The notes below the pieces were generated by a model. The model saw only the letters and a list, made by a program, of their open reading frames with translations, made no database searches and was not told the origin of the DNA. Shown piece by piece: positions 1-16,701 of a stretch of DNA of 23,764 bases (the first letter of the stretch is position 1; the number at the start of each line of letters is the position of its first letter). Position numbers and translations under genes: made by a program. Origin of the DNA: a virus; IMG/VR virus record IMGVR_UViG_3300010370_000248, positions 1 to 23,764 of that record; one strand, 5' to 3'.

Positions 1-2162
1 ATAAAGAAGAGTCTATTGGATCTTCTCCAGATCCATTGACTCCAATGGATAAAAAATTTGCAACCTTAGATGATCTTGCAAATCACTATAGAATTTTTAT
101 TAATAGAATTCAAACCCAATTATCAACAATAGGTGGGGGTGGTGCCGGATTTATTAAGGATCTTGATGATGTTGAATTTGATCAAACAATTGGCAATAAT
201 AAATTATTAATTTACGATCAGGCAAATTCTAAGTGGGTTGGTATTGCTAGCACTGCATTAATGTCTTCATCATCAGTCGGAGCGGGAGGAACGTGGGCGG
301 TTGATTCTGTTGGCATCAATACGGTAAAAAATGTTGGAATTGGAACTACGGCACGATCAGATCAGGCACTTTACGTTCAAGGAGACGCAACTTTTACTGG
401 AAATATTTCTGTTGCTGGAACAGTAACTTATGAAGATGTAACCAACGTAGATTCTATTGGAATTATTACTGCTAGACAAGATATTAAAGTAGATAGAAAT
501 CTTTTAGTTGCTGGAATAACCACTCTAGGTTCGTCAAATGGAATTGGTACAGTTACAATAGGTATTGGATCTACGGCACTTTATGTTGATGGAAATGCTC
601 GTGTTACTGGAATTCTAACGGTCGGTAAATCTTCAGTCATAATTGATGGAGATAATAATACTATTACTGCTGGTGATATTTTAATCACAGGTTCTTCAAT
701 TACTATTGGAGAAAATGTAACTATTAATAGTGGTGCTACTGGCATCAACTCAGCACCAAACGTAGTTTACGTTGCCAAAGATGGAAATGATTCCAACAAT
801 GGAACCTCAATTGATAATGCTAAATTAACGATTGCTGGGGCAGTTGGCATTGCTACAACTGGAACTATTGTTAAAGTTCTTGCAGGAAATTATTTAGAAA
901 ATAATCCAATTGAAGTTCCTCCATTTGTCTCCATAGTTGGTGACGATTTAAAAACTGTAACTGTTTCACCAAATATTGCAAATCAAGACCTTTTCCATGT
1001 GAGAAAAGGTTGTTATATCACAAACATGACTTTTACAAATCATGTTTATCCAGCAGCTGCGATTGGATTTCCAACTACAGAAATAGCAACCAATGTTGGT
1101 GGAGGTAAATGGGAAAGTCCCTATATTCAAAATTGCACTAGCAATACCACAACCGGGATAGGATTGAGAATAGATGGAAATCAAGCAGAAGGTCTAAAAT
1201 CAATTGTATGTGATAGTTACACACAATACAATCAAGGTGGAGTTGGTGTAGCAGTAACTAATAATGGATATGCTCAATTAGTTAGTGTTTTTACAATTTG
1301 CTGCAATGAAGGTATTACAGCGTATAAGGGTGGACAGTGCTCACTTACAAATAGTAATACAGATTTTGGGACTTATGGTTTAGTTGCAGATGGTGTAAGT
1401 GATCTTCAATTTACAGGAATTGTTACTACAAGTGCATCAGTCGGAACTGATAGTGTAGCAGTTGCAATTAATACAACTACAAGACCATACGAAGGTCAGG
1501 TTTTATACTTTGGAACACTTTATTACACCGTAGAAAGTATTAATGTAACCAATGGTGGTAGTGGATATACATCAACACCATCAGTCACAATCGGAACCCC
1601 ATCAGGTCCAAATGGTTCAACTGCTACAGCATTTGCAACTTTAGATGGAGATCGTGTTTCTACTATTACCATTATTTCAAGTGGATCTCAATATACTTCA
1701 TCTCCATCAGTTACGATTTCTGCACCAAATTCAGGAACCACGGCAACAGCATCCGCAAATACGTCACCAATTTACTATACAATAAATAGTTCAACTCCAG
1801 TTTCTTCTGGAATCACTACTATTACCTTGGATGAAAATCTGAATAATACGGTTGGTGTTGGAACTACTGCATACTTTTATCAAGTGAGTAGAATTACGGC
1901 AAGTTCCCATACTTTTGAATATGTTGGATCTGGAAATGATATCACCAACGCAACTCCATTGAGAGGTGGAGTGCCCATTCAAGAAAATGAGGTTGTGACA
2001 ACAAATGGTGGTAAAGTAGTTTTTACAAGCACAGATCAAGCAGGAAACTTCAGAATTGGTAATGATATTGTCATTAACCAAAACAATGGAACAATTAGTG
2101 GTAGAGCATTTACAAGAAGTTTATTTAATTCAATGACACCGTTCATCTTAGCATTAAGTTAG
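1..2162 (+). CDS. Fibre-like virion structural protein, 5'-partial
   Basis: The first in-window start is a TTG at 36, but the frame is open to the left edge (codons from position 3 read K-E-E-S-I-G-S-S-P-D-P-L-T-P), so the N-terminus is probably outside the window. Residue numbers count from the TTG. Residues about 10-50 (LDDLANHYRIFINRIQTQL, then a Gly run and FIKDLDDVEF) match an N-terminal module recalled from marine myovirus structural proteins. About 95-220 holds GIGTT/GIGST repeats, including two copies of an ALYV(Q/D)G...TG unit. From about 245 a region starting VVYVAKDGNDSNNG and continuing through IVKVLAGNYLENNP resembles a right-handed beta-helix. About 495-570 has two GSGYT-type repeats. 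No enzyme motif is visible. Most likely a tail-fibre or other surface component; the exact virion location is unknown. It ends one base before the next gene. Confidence 0.75.
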   Translation, partial: KEESIGSSPDPLTPMDKKFATLDDLANHYRIFINRIQTQLSTIGGGGAGFIKDLDDVEFDQTIGNNKLLIYDQANSKWVGIASTALMSSSSVGAGGTWAVDSVGINTVKNVGIGTTARSDQALYVQGDATFTGNISVAGTVTYEDVTNVDSIGIITARQDIKVDRNLLVAGITTLGSSNGIGTVTIGIGSTALYVDGNARVTGILTVGKSSVIIDGDNNTITAGDILITGSSITIGENVTINSGATGINSAPNVVYVAKDGNDSNNGTSIDNAKLTIAGAVGIATTGTIVKVLAGNYLENNPIEVPPFVSIVGDDLKTVTVSPNIANQDLFHVRKGCYITNMTFTNHVYPAAAIGFPTTEIATNVGGGKWESPYIQNCTSNTTTGIGLRIDGNQAEGLKSIVCDSYTQYNQGGVGVAVTNNGYAQLVSVFTICCNEGITAYKGGQCSLTNSNTDFGTYGLVADGVSDLQFTGIVTTSASVGTDSVAVAINTTTRPYEGQVLYFGTLYYTVESINVTNGGSGYTSTPSVTIGTPSGPNGSTATAFATLDGDRVSTITIISSGSQYTSSPSVTISAPNSGTTATASANTSPIYYTINSSTPVSSGITTITLDENLNNTVGVGTTAYFYQVSRITASSHTFEYVGSGNDITNATPLRGGVPIQENEVVTTNGGKVVFTSTDQAGNFRIGNDIVINQNNGTISGRAFTRSLFNSMTPFILALS

Positions 2163-2163
2163 T

Positions 2164-2499
2164 ATGGCACAATTAGCACTCAACAATTTTAAAACAGTTA
2201 CACTAGAAGTAACTACTTCGGAGCAAACAGCATATACTGCTCCCACTGGATATACTTCTATTGTTTTATATGCACACGTTACCAACATTGGATCTTCAAC
2301 AGAAACTGTAACAGTATCTCACAAAAGAAGTACAACCTCAACAGAAATAGCAAAGGCAGTGGCAGTTCCTCCAAATGATGCTTTTGTTCCAATGGATGGG
2401 AAACTAGTTTTGGAAACTAGTGACTCTGTTGTAATTTTTGCAAGTGCTAATTCTACATTTAAATTGATCTTAAGCATTCTGGAAACTGCAAATGCCTAA
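2164..2499 (+). CDS. Small beta-rich protein, putative virion component
   Basis: A 111-residue protein with no recognised family. It is rich in Thr, Ser and Val in alternating patterns suggesting a small beta-sandwich. A central VPPNDAFVPMDGKLVL stretch is followed by a hydrophobic strand and a final FKLILSILE. There is no signal peptide, membrane segment or catalytic motif. It begins one base after the fibre-like gene stops and overlaps the next gene by 8 bases, so it is probably co-transcribed and translationally coupled with both. Position among structural genes suggests a virion role; this is inference. The pattern loosely resembles the 88-residue protein at 13200, but homology is unproven. 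Confidence 0.65.
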   Translation: MAQLALNNFKTVTLEVTTSEQTAYTAPTGYTSIVLYAHVTNIGSSTETVTVSHKRSTTSTEIAKAVAVPPNDAFVPMDGKLVLETSDSVVIFASANSTFKLILSILETANA

Positions 2500-2839
2500 A
2501 CTTATCAGTCAAAAAAACTTTAGTAATATTACTGTATCTGGAGTTACTACAACAACTTCAAATCAATTTGCCCTCGACAGTTTTCTAAAAAGTTCTTTCA
2601 GATCGGCAAAATATCAAATTCAAATTAATCAAGGATCATCATATCAAACAACAGAATTTTTGGTTGTTCATGATAATACAATCACTTATAACACCGAATT
2701 TGCAATTGTAAAAACTGGAGATTCATTATCAACTTTTGATAGTGATATATCAGGAAATTATGTAAGACTTTTGGCAACTCCATCATCTGCAGCAAGTCCC
2801 ATTAATTTTAAAATTATAAGAATATCAATTGATTCATAA
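2492..2839 (+). CDS. Small structural-module protein, putative virion component
   Basis: A 115-residue protein. Residues about 28-110 (FLKSSFRSAKYQIQINQGSS, then TTEFLVVHDNTITYNTEFAIV, then DSDISGNYVRLLATP) match a beta-rich module that I recall as recurring inside large structural and fibre proteins of marine T4-like phages. Here the module stands alone as a gene. The start overlaps the previous gene by 8 bases. Its TAA stop lies inside a CATAAATA late-promoter-like sequence that would serve the next gene. The molecular function is unknown; a fibre or baseplate accessory role is inferred from the module and the location. Confidence 0.7.
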   Translation: MPKLISQKNFSNITVSGVTTTTSNQFALDSFLKSSFRSAKYQIQINQGSSYQTTEFLVVHDNTITYNTEFAIVKTGDSLSTFDSDISGNYVRLLATPSSAASPINFKIIRISIDS

Positions 2840-2842
2840 ATA
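2835..2842 (+). promoter_or_regulatory. Candidate T4-type late promoter (CATAAATA)
   Basis: CATAAATA differs by one base from the T4 late consensus TATAAATA. It overlaps the TAA stop (2837-2839) of the preceding gene and lies 27 bases before the ATG at 2870. A perfect A6T6 tract follows at 2856-2867. No Shine-Dalgarno sequence is visible before the ATG. The promoter function is inferred. Confidence 0.5.
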
Positions 2843-2869
2843 AAAAAGACAGAATAAAAAATTTTTTGG

Positions 2870-4636
2870 ATGAAACCAAATTTTAGCCATAAAACACCAC
2901 ATCTAAAAGGAAAACAGCACCAATTAGATCCAAATTTAGATCTAAAACAATTGGTACATCACTCAACAGTTCAATATGTTGATCGTGATGCTGATGGTGA
3001 TGTGGATGTTTATGATAATCCAAAAAAGAAGACTCCAGATGAAAATCCAATTGATATTAATGTTGGTGCTGGATCAAGAAAATTACTAGCAAAACAAAAA
3101 GGCGAACTTAAGCATACTAGAAGAGGTATGGCTTACGAAGCATGGAGTGAAAAATACAAAAATTCTATCGACTGTAATAATCCAAAAGGATTTTCTCAGA
3201 GAGCTCATTGTCAAGGACGTAAAAAGAAAATAGATGAAGATCTCCGCAAATGGTTTGGAAAGGGTGGAGAAGGTGGAGTAGGTGGTGGTGGATGGGATAG
3301 ATACAATACAAAAGGTGAAAGAATTGGCAAGTGTGCTCGTGAACCTGGAGAAGGTAAACCAAAATGTCTATCAAAAGAAAAGGCGGCAAAAATGTCTAAG
3401 GATGAAATTGCTGCTGCTGTAAGAAGAAAAAGAAAAGCAGATCCTGTAGCAGATCGTCCAGGAAAAGGAGGGGCACCAAAGATGGTATCTAATAAAATTA
3501 AAGAAGAAATGGGATTGGTTAGGTATTGTCCGAAGTGCCAAAAGAATGAAACTAGAAGTGAATGTGCTTATGGTGCAAGATACTGGGACATGTTTTCAAT
3601 GCCACCAGCACTTACTACAAATCAAATGAAGTATGATATTGCTCAGATTCATCCAACAAATGAGCAAAAAGATCATGAATATTCAATGGCTCGTTCAGAA
3701 CTTTCTACTGTAGCAAATGCAGTAAAGAGGTTGAAGAAAAAAATGGGGAAAGGTGAAGGTAATATCGAAGCATGGGTTCAATCAAAAATTACCAAGGCAG
3801 CAGATTATCTTGATGCCGCGGCAGATTACTTAGATAGTGGTGAACATGATATTGAAGAGGCAAAGGGACCTTGTTGGACTGGATATAAGCAAGTGGGAAT
3901 GAAGAAGAAGGGGAATAAGATGGTTCCAAATTGTGTTCCTGAGCATACTGGCATCATCGCAAAAGTTCTTGAGCAAATTGCAGGAGAAGAAGAACTTCAA
4001 AATCTTGAAGAGAAAAATGTTCCGACTAATCCTGCTTTATGGTCCAAGATGAAGTCTAGAGCAAAAGCAAAGTTTGATGTATATCCTTCTGCTTATGCTA
4101 ATGGTTGGGCAGCAAAGGAATATAAGAAAGCAGGTGGTAGTTGGAAGTCTGTGAGTGAAGAGATTGAACTTGAAGAGGCAATAAGAATGTCAGCAAAAAC
4201 TGGAAATTTAATGCATGTAGTTCTGACTTGGAAAGGAAAGTACTATTCACTTAAGATGTTCTTTCCACAACTATCGATTCCAAGCAGAAAAGATGTTCAA
4301 TATCAGATTGAAAAAGTCTATCCCGGATCTAGAGTTCAATCGTATCATGTTGCAGAGTATCAACCAGGAGAACCTTTTTTACAAACTGAAGGTGCTGCAT
4401 GGACTCGCAGAGAGGGTCAAAATAAAGAAGGTGGTCTTAATGAAAAAGGACGCAAATCTTATGAAAGAGAAAATCCAGGGTCCGATTTAAAAGCACCAAG
4501 TAAGGAGGTTGGAAATCCTCGGAGGGCATCATTTTGTGCAAGGATGCGAGGAATGAAGAAAAAACTTACTTCATCAAAGACTGCTAACGATCCTAATAGT
4601 AGAATCAATAAGTCACTTAGAGCTTGGAACTGCTGA
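2870..4636 (+). CDS. Mosaic protein of short Cys-bearing modules, unknown function
   Basis: This 588-residue protein is a string of short modules recalled from marine phage hypothetical proteins. Residues 38-49 form an Asp-rich EF-hand-like loop (D38, D40, D42, G43, D49). Then come C102/C114 (SIDCNNPKGFSQRAHC); a Gly-rich segment with C155/C166 (GGWDRYNTKGERIGKC); a C220-x2-C223...C232 knuckle followed by YGARYWDMF; C335/C355 (PCWTGYKQVG...PNCVPE); and 384-426 (VPTNPALWSK...FDVYPSAYANGWAAKEY). A beta/alpha module at about 446-496 resembles the neighbouring 108-residue gene. The C-terminal module 507-588 (AAWTRREGQNKEGGLNEKGR, ending RAWNC) resembles a family I recall as DUF6321. Lys/Arg content is high; there is no membrane segment and no known catalytic motif. 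Function is unknown; a nucleic-acid-associated or virion-packaged role is possible. Confidence 0.7.
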   Translation: MKPNFSHKTPHLKGKQHQLDPNLDLKQLVHHSTVQYVDRDADGDVDVYDNPKKKTPDENPIDINVGAGSRKLLAKQKGELKHTRRGMAYEAWSEKYKNSIDCNNPKGFSQRAHCQGRKKKIDEDLRKWFGKGGEGGVGGGGWDRYNTKGERIGKCAREPGEGKPKCLSKEKAAKMSKDEIAAAVRRKRKADPVADRPGKGGAPKMVSNKIKEEMGLVRYCPKCQKNETRSECAYGARYWDMFSMPPALTTNQMKYDIAQIHPTNEQKDHEYSMARSELSTVANAVKRLKKKMGKGEGNIEAWVQSKITKAADYLDAAADYLDSGEHDIEEAKGPCWTGYKQVGMKKKGNKMVPNCVPEHTGIIAKVLEQIAGEEELQNLEEKNVPTNPALWSKMKSRAKAKFDVYPSAYANGWAAKEYKKAGGSWKSVSEEIELEEAIRMSAKTGNLMHVVLTWKGKYYSLKMFFPQLSIPSRKDVQYQIEKVYPGSRVQSYHVAEYQPGEPFLQTEGAAWTRREGQNKEGGLNEKGRKSYERENPGSDLKAPSKEVGNPRRASFCARMRGMKKKLTSSKTANDPNSRINKSLRAWNC

Positions 4637-4637
4637 T

Positions 4638-4964
4638 ATGAAAACATTTAAACAGTTTTTATCGGAAAGCATCAATATTTCCGGAGACTTCAACGGAACT
4701 TTAATTGTTGGTGGTAATGATAGTAATTATCAAGAACCTCAGACTGAAGAGTTTTCGGCGGATATTATTTATCGTGGAAATATTCATAGAATTACCATGG
4801 TTTCTGAGAATGGTGTTCCATCTAAAATGGATCTTACAGAATATCTTCAAGACGATTATCCCGGATCTATTGTTCAAAATATATACGTTAAAGAAGATTC
4901 AAAAGGTTCTATTAAAGTAGTAGACGATAAAAGGTATCATCCATCAAAATTGGAGTGGATTTAA
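4638..4964 (+). CDS. Small protein with an MKTFKQFLSE leader, paralogous to part of its neighbour
   Basis: A 108-residue protein starting one base after the 588-residue gene ends. The N-terminus MKTFKQFLSE resembles the leader of several cyanophage proteins. Residues about 40-92 (ADIIYRGNIHRITM, then VPSKMDLTEYLQDDYPGSIV, then QNIYVKEDS) align with residues about 448-496 of the neighbour (VVLTWKGKYYSLKM, IPSRKDVQYQIEKVYPGSRV, QSYHVAE). Both keep a strand pair, a (V/I)PS turn, a helix and YPGS. The DNA also agrees locally: both contain TATCCCGGATCTA. This suggests duplication of one module. Function is unknown. Confidence 0.65.
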   Translation: MKTFKQFLSESINISGDFNGTLIVGGNDSNYQEPQTEEFSADIIYRGNIHRITMVSENGVPSKMDLTEYLQDDYPGSIVQNIYVKEDSKGSIKVVDDKRYHPSKLEWI

Positions 4965-4967
4965 TTT

Positions 4968-6398
4968 ATGGCTCAGTGGAATATACAAATTCAAGATTAT
5001 TTAAACCAAGAAAGATCACTATTTGAAGTCGTCGGAGTTGCTTCTAGTGATGGTCAAATAATTAGTCCTCAAAATCCATTCCCAGTTACAGGCACCATTG
5101 GGATACAAACTGGAACTGGAATAGTTATTAATTCTGATACTACTGCATATGATGCTTTTGGTAGGCAAAGAATTTCTGAACCATTTACTCTTGGAGATTA
5201 TAAACATCTTTATGCAGTTGATCCAAATTTTTTGGATAGCGTTTCTGGAACAGGTTCAACTGTTACATTTATAGCAAATCAAGCAGCAGCAAGACTACAA
5301 ACGGGTATTGGAAGCACTGCATATTCCATTCATCAAACAAAGTTTTATCACCATTATCAACCAGGAAAATCACAACTAATTTTTAGTTCTTTTAATTTCT
5401 ATGCACCTCAACAGAATGCAACTAAGAGAACTGGATATTTTGATGATAGAGATGGTATTTACTTAGAACAAGTAGGTCTTAACACATCTGATGGTATTAA
5501 TGCTGGTATAGGAACTTATAACTGGGTTATTAGAACTTTTACAAGTGGAATTGCAACAGAAACAAGAATTCCACAATCACAATGGAATAAAGATAAGTGT
5601 GATGGGACAGGAACATCTGGTTTTAATATTGACTTTACAAAAACTCAACTTGCATTTATTGATTTCCAGTGGTTAGGAGTCGGTAGAGTTCGTTGTGGTT
5701 TTGCTCATGATGGTAAACTAATTACAGCACACGAATTTTTACACTCCAATAATAACCCAAAAGTTTATATTTCAAATCCAAACCTACCAGTTCGTTGTGA
5801 AATAAGAAATACTGCTGTTGGAGTTGGAGCATCATTTGACCAGATTTGCTCTACTGTTGCGAGTGAAGGTGGTTATGTTGAAAGTGGTATTGACTTTGCA
5901 TATACAATGACTACAACAAGAACTACACCAACTCCAGCAGGAACAGAATTTCCATTAGTTGCAATTCGTCTTAAAAATACTTTTCAAGGATATCCCAATA
6001 GAATATCAGTTAGATTAAATAATATTTCTATTCATTGCGAAACTAATAGTATCATTTATAAAATTGTAAAACTTCCAAGTTCTGTGTATATTGGTAATGC
6101 AGGAACCCTTACTTGGACTTCTGCATCTGCTAATAGTGGAGTTGAAGTTTGTGTAGATGCAACAACTTATAGTGATGGAGACGTATTTGCGTCTGGTTAT
6201 GTTCCTTCTGGTGCATCACAAAACTCACTGTCTCCAGTTGCGTCCGGAGCACTTACATCAGCAAAGAAAAATATTATTGTTCAAAATATTGATTCAACAA
6301 ATTCAGAAATTTATGCAGTTATTGTAAGAACAATTACCACAACTGGCAATGCAACTTCTTCCGTTGCAGCAGCACTTCAGTGGAGAGAAATTTATTAA
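4968..6398 (+). CDS. Virion structural protein (cyanophage type)
   Basis: A 476-residue beta-rich protein. The start MAQWNIQIQDYLNQE follows the preceding stop by three bases, with GGAG 14 bases upstream. Residues about 62-73 read DAFGRQRISEPF, followed by GDYKHLYAVDPNFLD and the motif HQTKFYHHYQPGKSQLIFSS. I recall this arrangement from marine myovirus virion proteins. The middle part carries FDDRDGIYLEQ and WLGVGRVRCGFAHDGKLITAHEF; the C-terminal third is Ser/Thr/Val-rich. No enzymatic motif or membrane segment is visible. Its place next to terminase and downstream of fibre-like genes fits a baseplate, fibre or head-surface protein, but the exact position in the particle cannot be read from the sequence. 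Confidence 0.7.
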   Translation: MAQWNIQIQDYLNQERSLFEVVGVASSDGQIISPQNPFPVTGTIGIQTGTGIVINSDTTAYDAFGRQRISEPFTLGDYKHLYAVDPNFLDSVSGTGSTVTFIANQAAARLQTGIGSTAYSIHQTKFYHHYQPGKSQLIFSSFNFYAPQQNATKRTGYFDDRDGIYLEQVGLNTSDGINAGIGTYNWVIRTFTSGIATETRIPQSQWNKDKCDGTGTSGFNIDFTKTQLAFIDFQWLGVGRVRCGFAHDGKLITAHEFLHSNNNPKVYISNPNLPVRCEIRNTAVGVGASFDQICSTVASEGGYVESGIDFAYTMTTTRTTPTPAGTEFPLVAIRLKNTFQGYPNRISVRLNNISIHCETNSIIYKIVKLPSSVYIGNAGTLTWTSASANSGVEVCVDATTYSDGDVFASGYVPSGASQNSLSPVASGALTSAKKNIIVQNIDSTNSEIYAVIVRTITTTGNATSSVAAALQWREIY

Positions 6399-6407
6399 GG
6401 TGAAATT

Positions 6408-8054
6408 ATGAGTGACGTATATCTTGGCAATCCATTACTAAAAAAAGCAAATACTCCTATTGAGTTCACTCAAGATCAGATTCTTGAGTTTGTAAAGTGT
6501 AAAGAGGATCCTGTTTACTTTGCAAAGAACTATGTAAAAATTGTGACCCTGGATAAGGGATTGCAACCTTTTCAGATGTATCCATTTCAGGAAAAATTAG
6601 TCAACAATTTTCACAATCACAGATTTAATATCTGTAAGATGCCACGACAAACTGGAAAATCTACCACTGTAGTGTCTTTCCTGCTCCACTATGCTGTCTT
6701 CAATGATAATGTCAACATAGGTATCCTCGCAAACAAAGCAGCAACCGCAAGGGAGCTCCTGGATAGGTTACAGACTGCATATGAGAACCTTCCCAAGTGG
6801 ATGCAGCAGGGTATTATATCATGGAATAAAGGTTCTTTGGAATTGGAGAATGGATCAAAGATTCTGGCTGCTTCTACATCTGCGAGTGCTGTCCGAGGCA
6901 TGTCATTCAATATCCTCTTTCTCGATGAGTTCGCTTTCGTTCCAAACCATATCGCAGATTCCTTCTTTGCATCTGTTTATCCTACTATTACTTCTGGTAA
7001 GAGCACGAAAGTAATCATCGTTTCTACACCACACGGTATGAATCATTTCTACCGCATGTGGCACGATGCGGAAAAGAAGAAGAATGAATATATTCCAACC
7101 GATGTTCATTGGAGTGAAGTTCCTGGTAGAGATGAGGTATGGAAGGCACAAACTATTGCCAACACATCTGATCAGCAGTTTAAGGTTGAGTTTGAGTGTG
7201 AGTTCTTAGGATCTGTTGATACTTTGATTGCACCAAGCAAACTTAAGAGTTTAGTTTATGACCACCCACTTAAAAGAAGTGCAGGTCTAGATGTTTATGA
7301 AGATGTTCAAGATAATCATGATTATGTAATCACTGTTGACGTTGCTCGTGGTGTTGGTAATGATTATTCGGCATTCGCAGTAATAGATATTACCACATTT
7401 CCACATAAAGTAGTCGCAAAATATAGAAATAATGAAATAAAACCAATGCTTTTTCCAAGCATTATTGTAGATGTTGCAAGAAACTATAACGACTCTTACA
7501 TCTTATGTGAAGTAAATGATGTTGGAGATCAGGTAGCAAGCATTGTTCATTATGATCTAGAGTACAATAATCTTTTGATGTGCTCTATGCGTGGTAGAGC
7601 AGGACAAATTGTTGGACAGGGTTTCTCTGGAAAGAAAACACAACTTGGAGTAAAAATGTCCAAGACAGTTAAGAAGGTTGGATGTTTAAACCTCAAGACA
7701 ATGATTGAGGAAAATAAACTTCTTCTTAATGATTATGAGATAATTGCAGAACTTACAACTTTTATTCAGAAGCACAACTCATTTGAGGCAGAAGAGGGTT
7801 GTAATGACGACTTGGCTATGTGCTTGGTAATCTATGCATGGTTAGTTGCTCAGGATTACTTCAAAGAACTTACAGATCAGGATGTTCGTAAGAGAATCTA
7901 TGAAGAACAAAAAAATCAGATAGAACAAGATATGGCACCTTTCGGATTTATTGTTGATGGATTAGATTCCGAAAGTTTTGTTGATAATGATGGTGATAGA
8001 TGGTTTAGTGATGAATATGGAGATAGGTCATATATGTGGGAGTATCTATCATAA
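6408..8054 (+). CDS. 17: Terminase large subunit, packaging ATPase/nuclease
   Basis: Homologue of T4 gp17, the motor that pumps DNA into the prohead and cuts the concatemer. At 548 residues it is somewhat shorter than T4's 610. ATPase domain: Walker A at 79-86 (PRQTGKST), Walker B at 170-175 (LFLDEF; D173, E174) and a coupling motif at 206-210 (STPHG). The RNase H-like nuclease domain has acidic positions D311 (VDVARG), E368 (CEVND) and D467/D468 (CNDDLA). The start is supported by AAGGTG at 6397-6402, which overlaps the previous stop codon. The stop overlaps the start of the next small gene as TAATG. Codons in the first half look more C/G-ending than in the second half. Confidence 0.97.
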   Translation: MSDVYLGNPLLKKANTPIEFTQDQILEFVKCKEDPVYFAKNYVKIVTLDKGLQPFQMYPFQEKLVNNFHNHRFNICKMPRQTGKSTTVVSFLLHYAVFNDNVNIGILANKAATARELLDRLQTAYENLPKWMQQGIISWNKGSLELENGSKILAASTSASAVRGMSFNILFLDEFAFVPNHIADSFFASVYPTITSGKSTKVIIVSTPHGMNHFYRMWHDAEKKKNEYIPTDVHWSEVPGRDEVWKAQTIANTSDQQFKVEFECEFLGSVDTLIAPSKLKSLVYDHPLKRSAGLDVYEDVQDNHDYVITVDVARGVGNDYSAFAVIDITTFPHKVVAKYRNNEIKPMLFPSIIVDVARNYNDSYILCEVNDVGDQVASIVHYDLEYNNLLMCSMRGRAGQIVGQGFSGKKTQLGVKMSKTVKKVGCLNLKTMIEENKLLLNDYEIIAELTTFIQKHNSFEAEEGCNDDLAMCLVIYAWLVAQDYFKELTDQDVRKRIYEEQKNQIEQDMAPFGFIVDGLDSESFVDNDGDRWFSDEYGDRSYMWEYLS

Positions 8055-8284
8055 TGGATATTGATGGTCAGATTAGATTAGGTCATTTACTCCTTAATGA
8101 TAGAAAATGTAGATCGTGCGGAGAAATAAAAAATTTAATTGATGGATTTTACAGAACTAGAAAAAATAGAGGACCTGTACCATCATCATACTCTTATGAG
8201 TGTAAAGAATGTACTATTAGACGAATTATAAGTGAACGAAAAAAGAAAGATTCTTTTATAGATTGGTCTTATCCAGATTGGTAG
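8054..8284 (+). CDS. Small zinc-ribbon protein, endonuclease VII-like N-terminal motif
   Basis: The ATG at 8054 shares one base with the terminase stop and gives 76 residues. A GTG at 8036 in the same frame would add six residues but lies inside gene 17, so the ATG is preferred. Two CxxC pairs are visible: KCRSCG, followed by FYRTRKNRG, and then YECKECTI. This spacing resembles the zinc-binding start of endonuclease VII/HNH-type phage proteins, but the catalytic half is absent and the protein ends in SYPDW. It could be a stand-alone zinc-binding DNA or protein adaptor, or a trimmed nuclease. Translational coupling to terminase is likely. Confidence 0.7.
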   Translation: MDIDGQIRLGHLLLNDRKCRSCGEIKNLIDGFYRTRKNRGPVPSSYSYECKECTIRRIISERKKKDSFIDWSYPDW

Positions 8285-8365: not shown

Positions 8366-10564
8366 ATGGCGACTCCTCAATTATCTCCAGGCGTTCTCGT
8401 CAGAGAGGTTGATTTAACTGTAGGGAGAGCTGATAATGTTTTAGATAACATTGGAGCAATTGCGGGTCCTTTTGCACTTGGTCCAGTTGAAGAACCAATT
8501 GACATCACCACAGAGCAAGAACTAATCAACGTTTTTGGAAAACCACTTTCAACAGATGCTCAATATGAGTATTGGATGAGTGCATCATCATTCCTTTCAT
8601 ATGGTGGCATTCTAAAAGTTGCTAGAGCTGATGGTTCAACACTTGTAAATGCAAATGCTATCAGAAATTCTTCTGGAGTATCAACTGCAGGAGAACCAAC
8701 ACTAAAAATTAAGAACTTCGATGACTACGAAGCAAATCATTCCGATGATGTTGCTAACTACATTTTTGCTGCAAAAACACCAGGAACTTGGTCAAACAAT
8801 CTTAAAGTTTGTGTAATTGACGATCAAGCAGACCAGATTCTCTACGTTGGTGCTGGTGTTACTGCATCAACCACGGTTGGAATGGCATTAACCACAACTC
8901 TAACTAATGTAGTATCTGCTGGAGTTGGAACTACTTCACTTTTCAATGGATACCTGAAGGGTATCGTTACTGGAATTGGTGCTAGCACACTAAATGTAAA
9001 AGTCACTTCAGTCGTTTCCACTGCTGGAGTTGAAACTGAAGTAGATTACGCAGAAAAATCCCAACTCAATTCATTTAAAGCTGCAACTGCTGGTGGAAAC
9101 TTAACAGTTAGTGTTATTAATAGTAGTGGAGTTGGTGTTGGAACTTCAACAATCAATACTGGAACAAATCCAATATTAGATTGGTATGATCAACAAACCT
9201 TATCACTTTCAAACACAGCAATCTACTGGAAATCTATTGCTCCCAAACCAGGAACATCACAATATGCAGTAGATAGAAATGGTAAAAATGATGAGATTCA
9301 CGTAGTAGTTGTTGATGATACTGGATCTGTCACTGGAATCCAAGGCAATATCTTAGAGAAGCACGTTGGTCTATCTAAAGCCAGTGATTCTATTTCTGCA
9401 GTAAATTCTCCACAAAGAATTTGGTGGAAAAATTATCTTGCATTGTATTCAAACTATGTTTATGTTGGAGATAATCCTTCGGATGAACTGAATGCTAATG
9501 AATTAGTATCAGCAACTGGATTCTCAACATCATTCACTCAATACACAAACACTGAAGGTCTTTGGAATCAACCAGCACAAGATAGAACTTACAGTGCTCT
9601 CGGAAACGTAACTTACAATTTAACTGGTGGTGTTGATTATTCTGCTTCTGGTGGAATGACAGCAACTCTAGGCAATCTAATGACAGCATATAATCTTTTC
9701 TCCAACAGAGACGAGATTGCTGTTGACTACTTAATCATGGGACCTGGACTTGGTAACAAGTTCGAGTCTCAAGCAAAAGCAAATAACCTCATCTCTATTG
9801 CGGATCAAAGAAAAGACTGTGTTGCAGTAATTTCTCCACATAGAGCAGACGTTGTTGATATTACAAATACGGACACTCAAACTGATAATATTTTAGAATT
9901 CTTTAGTCCTCTTTCTTCTTCATCTTATGCAGTATTTGATAGTGGATATAAGTACACTTACGATAGATTTAATGATAAGTTCCGTTATATCCCATGTAAC
10001 GCAGACGTTGCTGGTCTGATGGTAAGAACTTCGATCTTTGCATTCCCATGGTTCTCACCTGCAGGACAGCAAAGAGGAATTCTAAACAACGCAATCAAAC
10101 TTGCATACAATCCAAGTAAGGCACAAAGAGATCAACTCTATCCAAAGAGAATTAACGCAATCGTCAATCAACCTGGTGTTGGCATTCTTCTCTTTGGTGA
10201 TAAGACTGCTCTCGGATATGCATCTGCTTTTGATAGAATCAACGTTCGTCGTCTATTCTTAACTATTGAGCAAGCATTAGAAAGATCTGCCCAGGCTCAA
10301 CTATTCGAACTAAATGATCAGATCACCAGAGCAAACTTTGTTAATATTGTTGAACCATATCTGCGTGATGTTCAGGCAAAACGAGGACTTTATGGATTCC
10401 TGGTTGTTTGTGATGAAACAAACAACACTCCTGACGTAATTGATAATAATGAATTTAGAGCTGACATCTTCCTAAAACCAGCTAAATCCATCAACTACGT
10501 CACTCTTACCTTCGTTGCTACACGTACTGGTGTAAGCTTTGAAGAAGTTGTTGGTAGAGTTTGA
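8366..10564 (+). CDS. 18: Tail sheath protein
   Basis: Homologue of T4 gp18, the contractile sheath around the tail tube. It has 732 residues against about 659 in T4. The start MATPQLSPGVLVREVDLTVG is typical of myovirus sheaths and is preceded by AGGAG at 8355-8359. The C-terminal region carries the conserved sheath pattern (RINAIVNQPGVGILLFGDKTA, then INVRRLFLTIEQALERSAQ, then LRDVQAKRGLYGFLVVCDETNN). Residues about 150-255 are a Gly/Thr/Val-rich stretch with AGVGTT and GIGAST, likely a surface-exposed insertion. It directly precedes the tube gene, as in T4. Confidence 0.96.
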   Translation: MATPQLSPGVLVREVDLTVGRADNVLDNIGAIAGPFALGPVEEPIDITTEQELINVFGKPLSTDAQYEYWMSASSFLSYGGILKVARADGSTLVNANAIRNSSGVSTAGEPTLKIKNFDDYEANHSDDVANYIFAAKTPGTWSNNLKVCVIDDQADQILYVGAGVTASTTVGMALTTTLTNVVSAGVGTTSLFNGYLKGIVTGIGASTLNVKVTSVVSTAGVETEVDYAEKSQLNSFKAATAGGNLTVSVINSSGVGVGTSTINTGTNPILDWYDQQTLSLSNTAIYWKSIAPKPGTSQYAVDRNGKNDEIHVVVVDDTGSVTGIQGNILEKHVGLSKASDSISAVNSPQRIWWKNYLALYSNYVYVGDNPSDELNANELVSATGFSTSFTQYTNTEGLWNQPAQDRTYSALGNVTYNLTGGVDYSASGGMTATLGNLMTAYNLFSNRDEIAVDYLIMGPGLGNKFESQAKANNLISIADQRKDCVAVISPHRADVVDITNTDTQTDNILEFFSPLSSSSYAVFDSGYKYTYDRFNDKFRYIPCNADVAGLMVRTSIFAFPWFSPAGQQRGILNNAIKLAYNPSKAQRDQLYPKRINAIVNQPGVGILLFGDKTALGYASAFDRINVRRLFLTIEQALERSAQAQLFELNDQITRANFVNIVEPYLRDVQAKRGLYGFLVVCDETNNTPDVIDNNEFRADIFLKPAKSINYVTLTFVATRTGVSFEEVVGRV

Positions 10565-11249: not shown

Positions 11250-12923
11250 ATGGCAAAATTATTTGGATTCTCTATTGAGGATAACGAGCCAAAATCACCA
11301 ACTACGGTCAGTCCCGTCCCACCTAACAATGATGACGGGTCTGACCATTATTTAACGTCTGGTTTTTTTGGATCTTATGTAGATATTGAAGGTGTTTACA
11401 GAACTGAGTTTGATTTAATTAAAAGATATAGAGAAATGGCGCTTCACCCGGAGTGTGATAGTGCTATCGAAGACATCGTAAATGAAGCTATTGTATCAGA
11501 TTCAAATGATAGTCCCATAGAAATTGAACTATCAAATTTGAATGCAAGTGATGGTATTAAAAGAAAAATTAGAGAAGAATTTAAGTATATTTTAGAACTC
11601 TTAGACTTTGATAGAAAGTCTCATGAAATTTACAGAAATTGGTATATTGATGGCAGATTGTTTTATCACAAAGTTATTGATCTCAAAAAGCCAGAGCAAG
11701 GAATTCAAGAGTTACGATATATCGATTCCTTAAAAATAAGATATGTAAGGCAGCAAAAGAAAAATAAAAAAGATCAATATCGACTGGGAAATATTAATAA
11801 TGAAAATCCCATGGAATATGAATTCCCTGAGATTGAAGAATATTTCATTTATAATCCAAAAATGACATATCCAACCGGAAATCCTTCTTCTATGGGAGGA
11901 TCTCAGGGAGTTAAAATTGCAAGAGATTCTATTACGTATTGCACATCAGGATTAGTAGATAGAAACAAAGGATCAACACTTTCATATCTACACAAAGCAA
12001 TTAAGTCTCTCAATCAATTAAGAATGATTGAAGACTCTCTAGTTATCTATAGATTATCTCGTGCTCCAGAACGTAGAATTTTCTATATCGATGTTGGAAA
12101 TCTGCCAAAAGTTAAAGCAGAACAATATCTTCGTGATGTTATGATGCGATATCGTAATAAACTTGTTTACGATGCAAGCACTGGCGAGATTCGTGATGAT
12201 AAAAAATACATGAGTATGCTTGAAGATTTCTGGTTGCCTCGGCGTGAAGGCGGTAGAGGAACTGAAATCTCCACCCTTCCTGGTGGTCAAAATCTTGGAG
12301 AAATTACAGATATTAAGTATTTCCAAGAAAAACTATATCGTTCATTAAATGTTCCATCATCAAGAATTGGAGGTGAAGGTGGTTTTAATCTAGGAAGATC
12401 TTCTGAGATTTTGAGAGATGAAGTTAAATTCAGCAAATTTGTTGGACGTTTAAGAAAAAGATTTTCTTACATGTTCAATGACATGTTAAGAACGCAACTT
12501 ATTTTAAAAAACATTATTACCCCAGAAGATTGGGAAGTCATGGAAGAACATATTCAATATGACTTCTTATATGATAATCATTTTGCAGAACTAAAAGAAG
12601 CAGAACTGTTGAATGAGAGACTTAATATGGTTCAAGCAGCAGAACCTTATGTTGGAAAATATTTTTCTCAAGATTACTTGAGAAGAAAAGTTCTTAGACA
12701 AACCGATCAAGAAATTCTTGAGCAGGATTTATTGATTAAAAAGGAAATTAAAGATGGAATAATTCCAGATCCATCACAAATGCAAATAGATCCCGCAACT
12801 GGACAACCAATTTCTGGAGAAGAATTGCAAACAGATCTTGGAAAACCAGTAATGGAACCTGAAATTAATGCAAGTTCTGTAGAATCTCCAGAAATAAAAA
12901 TACCAAAGGGTGGAGAAATCTAA
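11250..12923 (+). CDS. 20: Portal vertex protein
   Basis: Homologue of T4 gp20, the dodecameric head portal that nucleates prohead assembly and docks terminase and tail. It has 557 residues against 524 in T4. Recognisable stretches include YREMALHPECDSAIEDIVNEAI, the wing/stem part with YRLSRAPERRIFYIDVGNLPK, and LPGGQNLGEITDIKYFQEKLYRSLNVPSSRI. The C-terminal 60 residues are polar and Pro/Glu-rich. Gene 20 is widely used as a cyanomyovirus diversity marker. It sits upstream of the prohead core genes, as in T4. There is no obvious ribosome site before the ATG. Confidence 0.96.
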   Translation: MAKLFGFSIEDNEPKSPTTVSPVPPNNDDGSDHYLTSGFFGSYVDIEGVYRTEFDLIKRYREMALHPECDSAIEDIVNEAIVSDSNDSPIEIELSNLNASDGIKRKIREEFKYILELLDFDRKSHEIYRNWYIDGRLFYHKVIDLKKPEQGIQELRYIDSLKIRYVRQQKKNKKDQYRLGNINNENPMEYEFPEIEEYFIYNPKMTYPTGNPSSMGGSQGVKIARDSITYCTSGLVDRNKGSTLSYLHKAIKSLNQLRMIEDSLVIYRLSRAPERRIFYIDVGNLPKVKAEQYLRDVMMRYRNKLVYDASTGEIRDDKKYMSMLEDFWLPRREGGRGTEISTLPGGQNLGEITDIKYFQEKLYRSLNVPSSRIGGEGGFNLGRSSEILRDEVKFSKFVGRLRKRFSYMFNDMLRTQLILKNIITPEDWEVMEEHIQYDFLYDNHFAELKEAELLNERLNMVQAAEPYVGKYFSQDYLRRKVLRQTDQEILEQDLLIKKEIKDGIIPDPSQMQIDPATGQPISGEELQTDLGKPVMEPEINASSVESPEIKIPKGGEI

Positions 12924-13470: not shown

Positions 13471-14121
13471 ATGAAACTTATCAGAGAAGAAATAGAACAA
13501 GTAGAATTTATCGTTGAAAACAAAAACGGTAAAAAATCACTTTATATTGAGGGAGTTTTTCTTCAGGGAAACATTAAGAACCGTAATGGTCGTATGTATC
13601 CTATGGAAACTCTTCGTCGTGAAGTTTCTCGTTATAACGAAAACCATGTTCTACAAGGAAGAGCTCTTGGAGAACTTGGACATCCAGATGGTCCTACTGT
13701 AAATCTTGATAGAGTTTCTCATAAAATTGTATCACTCAGAGAGTCTGGTTCCAACTTCATCGGTAAGGCAAAAATTCTTTCCACTCCAATGGGGAAAATT
13801 GCAGAATCACTTATTTCTGAAGGTGTAAAACTTGGAGTTTCTTCTCGTGGTATTGGTTCCCTCAAATTAACTCGTGAGGGAATCAACGTTGTTGGAGATG
13901 ATTTCATGTTAGCAACTGCTGCTGATATCGTCGCAGATCCTTCAGCACCTGATGCATTTGTTGAAGGTATTATGGAAGGAAAGGAATGGGTATGGGATGG
14001 TGGAATCCTTCGTGAAAAATATGCACAGAAAACCTACAAGACTATTAATACTCTTGTAGATCAAAAGAGATTGGAAGAAAATAAGTTGAACTTATTCAAC
14101 GATTTTCTCGCAAATCTTTAA
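13471..14121 (+). CDS. 21: Prohead core scaffold and protease
   Basis: Homologue of T4 gp21, the serine protease that digests the scaffold and trims gp23 during head maturation. It has 216 residues against 212 in T4. The herpesvirus-assemblin-like catalytic pattern is visible: H71 in ELGHPDGP, S124/S125 in LGVSSRGIGS, and acidic D152/D156 in AADIVADPSAPDA. The N-terminal KNRNGRMYPMETLRREV is typical of the family. It lies four bases after the 88-residue gene and has no strong ribosome site of its own, so translational coupling is likely. Confidence 0.95.
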   Translation: MKLIREEIEQVEFIVENKNGKKSLYIEGVFLQGNIKNRNGRMYPMETLRREVSRYNENHVLQGRALGELGHPDGPTVNLDRVSHKIVSLRESGSNFIGKAKILSTPMGKIAESLISEGVKLGVSSRGIGSLKLTREGINVVGDDFMLATAADIVADPSAPDAFVEGIMEGKEWVWDGGILREKYAQKTYKTINTLVDQKRLEENKLNLFNDFLANL

Positions 14122-14170: not shown

Positions 14171-15253
14171 ATGTCTCGTGGAGATTTACAAGAAATGGAA
14201 GTAGGCACTAAGCAATCCAAAACCGCCGTTAATGCAAATGCTAAGGCGGCAGATGCGATGCCTAGAATGGCAGATCCAGGTACTCAACTGGGTAATGTAG
14301 AAGATCTCGGTGGTCCTACACCAGAAAACTACAAATCTGATGATGATTCAGCAAAACTGAAAACACCTGGAGCAACACTCAAGCAAGTTAGAGATGTTGT
14401 AAATAAAGGTGCTAAGTCTGCTGATGCAATGAAGAAGATGAAAGAAGATGAAGATCTTGAGGATGAAAATCTTCTCCATGAGGCAGAAGAAGAGGAAGTT
14501 GAAGAAGAGGAAGTTGAAGAAGAGGATGGAGTTGACATTGAGGAAGATGTCAATGCTCTTCTTGGTGGAGAAGAACTTTCTGAAGAATTTAGAGAGAAAG
14601 CTAAAGTAATTTTTGAAGCTGCTCTAAAGTCTAAAGTAAATGAAGTTAAAGAAGCTCTCGAAATTCAATACGAAGAAAGACTAGTAGAAGAAATCGAGGA
14701 AATTAAAGAAGCACTCAAGGAAAGAGTTGATTCTTATCTTGAGTATGTTGCCGATGAATGGTTCACCGAAAATGAACTTGCAATCGAACATGGACTTAAG
14801 ACCGAAATGACTGAGAGTTTCCTCTCAGGCATGAAGGAACTTTTTGAAGCACATTATGTATCAATCCCTGAAGATAAATATGATGTTCTTGAGAGCATGG
14901 TAGAAAAACTTGATGACATGGAGACAAAACTCAACGAGCAGATTGAGAAGAATATCCACCTTAACCAAAGACTCGCAGAGTCGGTTGCTGATGGAATCTT
15001 AGATCAAGTTTCTGAGGGCTTAGCAGTCACTCAGAAAGAGAAGCTCGCTTCACTTGCCGAAAGTGTTGAGTTTGAGAGTGAAGAAGAATATCGTGAAAAA
15101 CTGGAGATGCTGAAGGAGTCATACTTCTCAGCAGTCAAAACTCCAAAGGTAAAAACTGAGACTCTCTCTGAGCAAGTAGATGTTGCTCCCGAAAATATTT
15201 CAGGAACAATGGCTGCGTATCTGAGAACCCTTTCAGCAGTTGCCAAAAACTGA
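14171..15253 (+). CDS. 22: Prohead core scaffold protein
   Basis: Homologue of T4 gp22, the major internal scaffold of the prohead, degraded by gp21 before packaging. It has 360 residues against 269 in T4. The N-terminal part (MSRGDLQEMEVGTKQSKTAV, then GTQLGNVEDLGGPTPENY) is the cyanophage form. A Glu-rich block at about 106-127 comes from a 15-base tandem repeat. Residues about 135-330 are highly charged, helical and coiled-coil-like (YEERLVEEIEEIKEALKERV). The C-terminal SGTMAAYLRTLSAVAK is a usual ending for the family. GGAGAG at 14160-14165 supports the start. Confidence 0.94.
   Translation: MSRGDLQEMEVGTKQSKTAVNANAKAADAMPRMADPGTQLGNVEDLGGPTPENYKSDDDSAKLKTPGATLKQVRDVVNKGAKSADAMKKMKEDEDLEDENLLHEAEEEEVEEEEVEEEDGVDIEEDVNALLGGEELSEEFREKAKVIFEAALKSKVNEVKEALEIQYEERLVEEIEEIKEALKERVDSYLEYVADEWFTENELAIEHGLKTEMTESFLSGMKELFEAHYVSIPEDKYDVLESMVEKLDDMETKLNEQIEKNIHLNQRLAESVADGILDQVSEGLAVTQKEKLASLAESVEFESEEEYREKLEMLKESYFSAVKTPKVKTETLSEQVDVAPENISGTMAAYLRTLSAVAKN
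14486..14525 (+). repeat. 15-base tandem repeat in gene 22, about 2.7 copies
   Basis: The unit GAAGAAGAGGAAGTT occurs at 14486-14500 and exactly again at 14501-14515, followed by ten more bases of the unit. It encodes EEEEV repeats. Perfect short repeats in frame suggest expansion by polymerase slippage. Confidence 0.9.
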
Positions 15254-15297: not shown

Positions 15298-16701
15298 ATG
15301 TTCCAAGCCGAGCATCTGCAGGAAAAGTGGGCACCACTCCTCAACTATGAGGGTCTTGATCCAATCAAAGATTCCCATCGTAGAGCAGTAACCGCAATCC
15401 TGCTGGAAAACCAAGAAAAATTCCTTAGAGAAGAATCAGCATTCCAGTCTGGCATGAGCCTGATGGAATCACCAACCAACAGCGGTAACGTTGCTGGCGC
15501 ACAAGGTGGTTTCGGTGGCACTGCCGGTAACACTGTTGCTGGTTTCGATCCCGTTCTGATCTCACTGATCAGACGTTCAATGCCAAATCTGGTCGCATAT
15601 GATCTGGCTGGTGTTCAGCCAATGTCTGGTCCTACTGGACTGATCTTTGCAATGCGTTCCAGATATACCAATCAGTCTGGAACTGAAGCATTCTACGACG
15701 AAGCAAACACCACCTTCTCGGGCACCGATGCTGGTTTCGATACCACTCTGACCCGTGACTTTGCTGACGTTAATGCTGGTATCGGTACTACCATTCAGTC
15801 TGGTACTAACCCATCAGTTCTGAACCCTGTTGGAACTGCAACCTCAACCGCATATAACGTCGGTCAAGGTATGCCAACGGGTGATGCAGAAGCACTCGAT
15901 GATGGTACTAATGCATTCAACCAGATGGCTTTCTCGATTGAGAAAGTCACTGTTACTGCAAAGTCAAGAGCACTGAAGGCCGAGTACTCACTCGAACTTG
16001 CTCAAGACCTTAAGGCAATTCACGGTCTTAATGCAGAAGCTGAGTTGGCAAATATTCTGTCAACTGAGATTCTTGCTGAAATCAACCGTGAAGTTATCAG
16101 AACCATCTATAAGGTTGCTGAGCAAGGTGCTGCTGTTAACGTAGCAACTCCTGGTGTATTTGACCTTGACGTTGACTCCAACGGTCGTTGGTCGGTTGAG
16201 AAGTTCAAGGGTCTTCTGTTCCAAATCGAGCGTGATGCAAACGCAATTGCACAAAGAACTCGTAGAGGAAAGGGCAACATCATCCTGTGTTCTGCTGACG
16301 TTGCTTCAGCACTAACCATGGCTGGTGTTCTCGATTACACCCCTGCTCTAAATGCAAACCTGAACGTTGATGATACCGGCAATACTTTTGCTGGTGTTCT
16401 GTCAGGTAAGTATAGAGTTTACATCGACCCATATTCTGCAAACGTTGCTGCTAACCAGTACTACGTTGTTGGATATAAGGGTGCTAATCCTTATGATGCA
16501 GGTCTCTTCTACTGCCCATACGTTCCTCTCCAAATGGTTCGTGCCGTTGGTGAGAACTCCTTCCAGCCTAAGATTGGCTTTAAGACCCGTTATGGTCTTG
16601 TTGCTAACCCATTTGCTGAAGGAACCACTCAGGGTCTTGGCAGACTTCAAGTTAACGCAAACCGTTACTACAGAAGAGTACAGGTTAAAAATCTTATGTG
16701 A
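15298..16701 (+). CDS. 23: Major capsid protein
   Basis: Homologue of T4 gp23, which forms the hexamers of the head shell and is trimmed by gp21. It has 467 residues against 521 in T4, the usual cyanophage length. The N-terminal region (LQEKWAPLLNYEGLDPIKDS, then ILLENQEKFLREE) matches the precursor delta-domain. A core stretch reads PVLISLIRRSMPNLVAYDLAGVQPMSGPTGLIFAMRSRY, with MAFSIEKVTVTAKSRALKAEYSLELAQDLKAIHGL further on. The C-terminus FQPKIGFKTRYGLVANPFAE is conserved. Codons are visibly more G/C-ending than in neighbouring genes, as expected for a highly expressed gene. A terminator follows it. Confidence 0.97.
   Translation: MFQAEHLQEKWAPLLNYEGLDPIKDSHRRAVTAILLENQEKFLREESAFQSGMSLMESPTNSGNVAGAQGGFGGTAGNTVAGFDPVLISLIRRSMPNLVAYDLAGVQPMSGPTGLIFAMRSRYTNQSGTEAFYDEANTTFSGTDAGFDTTLTRDFADVNAGIGTTIQSGTNPSVLNPVGTATSTAYNVGQGMPTGDAEALDDGTNAFNQMAFSIEKVTVTAKSRALKAEYSLELAQDLKAIHGLNAEAELANILSTEILAEINREVIRTIYKVAEQGAAVNVATPGVFDLDVDSNGRWSVEKFKGLLFQIERDANAIAQRTRRGKGNIILCSADVASALTMAGVLDYTPALNANLNVDDTGNTFAGVLSGKYRVYIDPYSANVAANQYYVVGYKGANPYDAGLFYCPYVPLQMVRAVGENSFQPKIGFKTRYGLVANPFAEGTTQGLGRLQVNANRYYRRVQVKNLM

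Follow-up and report, generated by a model that had tools for sequence, protein, structure and literature searches.

The closest described systems are the internal head proteins of phage T4 and the polyvalent proteins. T4 internal proteins enter the prohead by means of about 10 N-terminal residues, of which positions 4 and 7 serve targeting and positions 8 and 10 processing, and the T4 prohead protease gp21 cleaves after L/I-x-E, as given in the part of PMC9026906 drawn on here. In the T4 record, ipI starts MKTFKEF, and ipII and ipIII start MKTYQEFIAE. Polyvalent proteins are shuffled multidomain proteins that are encoded among virion genes, are predicted to be injected and have been likened to polyproteins (Iyer et al. 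2017, PMC5512222).

The window, by which we mean the whole 23,764-nucleotide stretch of DNA that was analysed, comes from a T4-like marine cyanophage and holds a head and packaging gene cluster, with terminase gp17 at 6408, sheath at 8366, portal at 11250, gp21 at 13471, gp22 at 14171 and gp23 at 15298. Upstream of gp17, the 588-aa ORF and the peptide segments quoted for it in the initial annotation are both present in the sequence (Table 1). We propose that the product of this gene is probably a polyprotein joining T4-style internal head proteins; it would enter the prohead and be divided into its modules by gp21. The late promoter assigned to it earlier is plausible from the placement of an ATAAATA element, shared with gp18, gp20 and gp22 (31-46 nt 5′ of these genes and of ORF 12954), and not from the abundance of that element, the total count of 10 vs 8.2 expected being at chance level. 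No Rfam match was found in window positions 2000-6400. Directly 3′ of gp17, a short ORF with Cys pairs lies at 8036-8284, where relatives carry an endonuclease VII annotation.

Table 1. Features of the window (a slash marks a predicted cut; residues are those of the 588-aa protein)
Feature	Position	Strand	Remarks
ATAAATA, late-promoter-like	2836..2842	+	34 nt 5′ of the ATG of the 588-aa gene
Proposed modular polyprotein gene	2870..4636	+	588 aa; ATG start
M1, Asp-rich	2870..3139	+	residues 1-90 (block in relatives 5-90); EF-hand-like loop DRDADGDVDVYD; ends MAYE/
M2, 2 Cys	3140..3238	+	residues 91-123 (block in relatives 92-120); ends KIDE/
E123, predicted P1	3236..3238	+	KIDE/D
M3, 2 Cys	3239..3505	+	residues 124-212 (block in relatives 125-206); predicted charge +11.8; ends KIKE/
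E212, predicted P1	3503..3505	+	KIKE/E
M4 + M5	3506..3859	+	residues 213-330; blocks 217-245 and 266-325; M4 3 Cys, CPKC...C; M5 helical; ends DIEE/
E330, predicted P1	3857..3859	+	DIEE/A
M6, CWxGYKxVGMKKKG...NC	3860..4012	+	residues 331-381 (block in relatives 335-358); ends LEE/
E381, predicted P1	4010..4012	+	NLEE/K
M7, NVPTNPALWSK...YPSAYANGW	4013..4177	+	residues 382-436 (block in relatives 383-427); ends LEE/
E436, predicted P1	4175..4177	+	ELEE/A
M8, beta-beta-alpha-beta	4178..4390	+	residues 437-507 (block in relatives 441-504); ends QTE/
E507, weaker predicted P1	4388..4390	+	LQTE/G; P3 = Gln; at least 90% conserved
M9 = DUF6321, 2 Cys	4391..4633	+	residues 508-588 (block in relatives 509-588); charge +11.7
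Single-module gene, next after the 588-aa gene	4638..4964	+	108 aa; N-terminal CTS-like; mature part homologous to M8
MKTFKQFLSE, capsid-targeting-like sequence	4638..4667	+	compared with T4 ipI/ipII/ipIII
gp21 prohead protease, proposed processing enzyme	13471..14121	+	Pfam Peptidase_S77, E 1.5e-34; aligns to T4 gp21
gp22 scaffold, known type of gp21 substrate	14171..15253	+	[LI]xE 16 vs 8.7 expected
gp23 major capsid protein	15298..16701	+	candidate site SLME/SPTNSG near residue 57

Conserved modules in variable combinations

Comparison with relatives delimits nine module blocks in the 588-aa protein. The initial annotation spoke of Cys-bearing modules, which holds for M2, M3, M4, M6 and M9; M1, M5, M7 and M8 have no Cys here. 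Pfam names only DUF6321 (PF19846) above its cut-off (78.2 bits vs a gathering cut-off of 28.5, E 7e-22, residues 517-586), and M7 falls short of the DUF5872 (PF19197) cut-off (23.4 bits vs 27.5), which relative L057 passes at 28.0 bits. PHROGs returns several families of unknown function, each covering a different stretch of the protein. No enzymatic family was found in the 588-aa protein at Pfam E up to 1 or in the scanned relatives at E up to 0.01, and searches of NCBIfam, PADLOC and PDB sequences gave no match. An HNH-endonuclease match in PHROGs (E 0.019) and a Pfam match to IMD (E 0.14) were below threshold and were dropped. An EF-hand-like acidic loop occurs both in M1 (window 2981-3016) and in a separate MMKSFSDF protein (L099:1391-2596, DIDNDGDTDSSD). 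The DNA or metal binding suggested in the initial annotation is conjectural; the protein has a net basic charge, to which M3 and M9 contribute about +12 each, and the loop in M1 resembles an EF hand.

The full-length AlphaFold2 model (17 sequences in the alignment) has a pTM of 0.20, with better islands at the modules and low-confidence junctions, and it contains no one continuous fold. The stretches that hold residues 123, 212, 330, 381, 436 and 507 have pLDDT <50 in every case; because an alignment of 17 sequences makes for a weak model, low confidence at the predicted cut sites is consistent with cleavage there and not strong evidence of it.

With the 588-aa protein as query, tblastn found relatives in 517 phage records, 0 of which cover 80% of it in one place; DUF6321 alone occurs in 545 phage records, mostly of marine cyanophages. 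We built profile models for 20 modules from 80 viral loci, with seeds chosen by eye. The first set of 97 unique proteins contains 45 architectures among 74 complete ORFs, with 23 module pairs found in both orders, and a hold-out set, which came from three more viral scans plus a genome scan and was scored with those same models, added 275 proteins with 72 architectures among the 217 complete ones. Individual modules are conserved and their combination is variable; M2, M9 and some others occur as single genes too, and M9/DUF6321, where present, is nearly always the final module of the long protein. The two sets strongly support the initial proposal that the gene was built by module shuffling from units recurring separately in other phage proteins, as they do also in other orders and combinations, and no constant full-length architecture was seen among the relatives examined. 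The M2 case is the most direct. Where the 588-aa protein reads GMAYE/AWSEK...KKKIDE/DLRKWF, relative L002 reads GMAYE/DLRKWF and has M2 encoded upstream on its own, in a 51-aa gene that begins MKTFKQFQEE/WSNKYK; since M1 is directly followed by M3 in such relatives, the M2 indel falls exactly between MAYE/ and KIDE/.

Several further units were seen in the same scans. DUF192 (E about 1e-27 where scanned) is a bead in Bellamy-like phages (L084, L088, L098), and DUF5661 is a bead in L016. In L039:4036-5985, the M7 motif is split as YP/SAYANGW by a 243-aa insert that begins with Cys and ends ...TGN/S; it looks like an intein from these residues, and its match to Pfam Intein_splicing is weak (16.1 bits vs a cut-off of 35.8). 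In three podoviruses (L092, L093, L086), a single DUF6321 gene, accompanied by a small basic gene (GLYANIHAKRKRIKAGSGEKMRKPG), adjoins genes for the capsid or its scaffold, and a similar stretch, GLWDNIHAKRKRGE, lies inside the T4-like module proteins L100 and L108 as a further shared module. The M17 motif IEDANGN scores in fibre-type proteins as well (L023:1519-3321, L084:692-3244), possibly by chance or as a shared short motif.

Protease-type motifs and targeting sequences

In the 588-aa protein, [LI]xE occurs after residues 123, 212, 330, 381, 436 and 525. Five of these six sites, predicted to be of gp21 type, lie at most 5 aa before the starts of M3, M4, M6, M7 and M8, and the sixth is inside DUF6321. 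With the module boundaries as set here, chance would give such placement with a probability of about 8e-6, and it is the placement alone that is non-random, the total count not being enriched (6 vs 3.9 expected). The gp21 gene itself is in the same genome, and of the window genes compared, gp21 and gp22 show enrichment of [LI]xE, and gp17, gp18, gp20 and UvsW do not. Among relatives we scored the relaxed motif [ILVMF]xE, on the assumption that it describes cyanophage gp21 specificity. It is present in 237 of 333 unique junction windows of the first set (mean 107, maximum 131 when each window was shuffled internally) and in 309 of 447 of the hold-out (mean 132, maximum 158), compared with 6/256 and 16/357 module middles; it is depleted within modules (144 vs 215 expected) and enriched in linkers (480 vs 266). 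Polar-x-E at junctions is below its shuffled value, which argues that the enrichment does not merely reflect Glu-rich linkers. Since the module seeds were set by eye, the boundaries depend in part on the motif, and we therefore added a model-free test of indels between close relatives, which partly offsets this dependence. Both ends lay within 2 residues of a motif in 40 of 263 indels, vs 3.1 for random segments, and neither end was at a motif site in 76, the events being drawn from overlapping pairs of relatives and not all independent. From these statistics, the linkers look like prohead-protease sites. Such punctuation at the junctions, together with the T4-type capsid-targeting sequence (CTS) on single-module relatives described below, is what is new relative to the initial annotation.

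The 588-aa protein starts MKPNFSHKTPHLKGKQ and has no CTS at its N-terminus, so that we describe it as working like T4 internal proteins and do not class it as one. The protein encoded next to it has such a start, and its mature part and M8 are paralogues (sequence match E 7e-5) with a common predicted beta-beta-alpha-beta core. Across 30 relatives, K2 and E10 never vary, and F4 and F7 hardly do. CTS-like N-termini were found on 42 of 3927 ORFs, vs 1.8 expected, and nearly all of them belong to module genes; in T4-like phages, most single-module relatives have a T4-type CTS at the start, M2 being a stand-alone CTS-tagged gene in some, and the long module proteins mostly have no N-terminal targeting sequence. 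Internal CTS-type segments nevertheless occur in the long proteins, with 62 unique cases in the hold-out vs about 15 after shuffling, although true relics are somewhat fewer, since the 62 include three within M8 and some that result from extended start sites of single genes. They precede M6, M7 or M9, in the hold-out mostly M6 or M9 directly, and in L109 the internal CTS is complete with its Met (TMKSFKTYLSE/KNKPTNP). The single-module versions of DUF6321 or M7 in podoviruses, pelagiphages, roseophages and Microcystis phages have no CTS. A CTS-like DUF6321 gene (MKNFAQYIEE/DWQKK) was also seen on contig NZ_RMVE01000006 (L101, 188,235 bases), assigned to the bacterium Nonlabens xiamenensis; the length of the contig suggests that the assembly includes a T4-like phage genome.

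M8 and the 108-aa protein offer one lead to function. For the 108-aa model, Foldseek gave no match in the PDB with E <0.001, and VIA-align placed NE1680 first (Z 5.1) and T7 Gp2 next (4.3); for M8 in the full model, the matches were T7 Gp2 (Z 5.0), phi29 p6 (4.6) and YkzG (4.2). All structural matches are below Z 8, which leaves them as a lead that does not discriminate. T7 Gp2 is an inhibitor of host RNA polymerase; with it and RNA polymerase epsilon among the closest, weak matches (non-significant, Z 3.8-5.0), that enzyme might be what M8 and the 4638-4964 protein act on.

The same data bear on whether the long protein is cut at all. It could instead be an uncleaved beads-on-a-string virion protein whose joined modules bind or condense DNA in the head, the Glu linkers being flexible spacers. 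Its basic character (pI 9.5, charge about +36), its Lys/Glu-rich linkers and the presence of relatives in virions would all fit, as would the fact that the strict T4 motif [LI]xE is found in just 31-35% of junction windows. However, flexible spacers would not account for an enrichment specific to a hydrophobic P3, for avoidance of the motif inside modules or for single-module genes with a processable CTS ending in Glu, and we consider an uncleaved protein unlikely.

Virion proteomes of relatives

Mass spectrometry has detected relatives in the virions of S-SCSM1 and S-CREM2, which supports the earlier suggestion, made from the sequence, that the protein is packaged. A 517-aa relative, S-SCSM1 gp029, bears the label 'virion protein' in its record, and the S-SCSM1 paper reports 45 virion proteins by MS. 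For ORF137 of S-CREM2 (108049-109521), the published virion table lists 4 unique peptides at a coverage of 4.1%, and tblastn with an S-N03 family member (M8 and DUF6321 modules) placed the S-CREM2 relative exactly at this ORF. The CTS-bearing DUF6321 protein S-SZBM1_192 is absent from the S-SZBM1 MS table. Packaging is backed by homologues, and the predicted cleavage draws on sequence statistics.

Peptides of this kind could also come from a protein unrelated to the head that is encoded in the hypervariable gp16-gp17 region, works in the cytoplasm or on the host and co-purifies with virions. Variable genes are known to concentrate in this region (PMC3037559), abundant non-virion proteins are possible in CsCl preparations (a caveat in PMC10665884), and the relative S-SM1_115 is annotated as hypothetical and not called structural. 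Against this, the same modules bear a T4-type CTS when single, the place beside terL and other virion genes is conserved, and detection came from two independent virion proteomes, which together make co-purification quite improbable. Least probable is an accessory role in the tail, baseplate or fibre, with variable modules that determine host range, since the fibre-like proteins among neighbouring genes and the M17-like stretches in two fibre-type proteins are set against 0 matches to fibre, adhesin or baseplate families, the small and basic modules and the capsid-side location of the podoviral single DUF6321 gene.

Proposed processing and comparison with known systems

In the polyprotein reading that we favor, the 588-aa protein would be made late and enter the prohead core, where gp21 would cut it after hydrophobic-x-Glu sites between modules and free about 6-8 small, mostly basic modules; these would remain associated with the DNA and may enter the host on ejection. 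Fusion of small capsid-targeted single-module genes would have given rise to the long genes, which would still recombine at their linkers. We infer prohead packaging of the 588-aa protein, its cleavage, the retention and ejection of its products and all module functions. More tentatively, the system may amount to a combinatorial cargo, in which single CTS genes or polyprotein beads recombine at protease sites and are released by gp21 as a phage-specific cocktail that is ejected into the host. One gene would probably deliver several small proteins into the head, with a set of units that varies from phage to phage. If this is true, DUF6321-type proteins are the marine counterpart of T4 internal proteins, many unknown small modules turn into a definable set of candidates for ejected factors in host takeover or anti-defence, and the protease sites have a second use as places where recombination exchanges modules.

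In PhiKZ and SPN3US, head proteins are likewise cut by a gp21-like protease after short Glu-ending motifs, but processing there removes propeptides, and the parts of the two sources used here (PMC9026906, PMC5694885) do not describe a single chain that yields many exchangeable modules. The Pfam families DUF6321, DUF5872, DUF192 and DUF5661 are modules here or in relatives, and their names cover single modules without a function. In the freely accessible papers searched, we found no description of a capsid-targeted cyanophage polyprotein cut by the prohead protease.

T4 IPI, IPII and IPIII share with this system the N-terminal targeting pattern, the type of protease site, a Peptidase_S77 protease gene in the genome and small, mostly basic mature parts, predicted in our case. 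No module matched a T4 internal protein in the family searches made, and each T4 protein has its own gene and a single propeptide, whereas here many modules are joined with sites between them. With polyvalent proteins the locus shares shuffled multidomain architectures among virion genes (terL, sheath and portal neighbours). Those proteins, in a paper that mentions neither cyanophages nor these modules (PMC5512222), have disparate enzymatic domains, often with an embedded metallopeptidase; neither was found in the 588-aa protein or the scanned relatives, which have small, mostly non-catalytic modules and a separate gp21 as the proposed cutter. The 588-aa protein is closest to T4 internal proteins in mechanism and to polyvalent proteins in logic, and neither description covers it.
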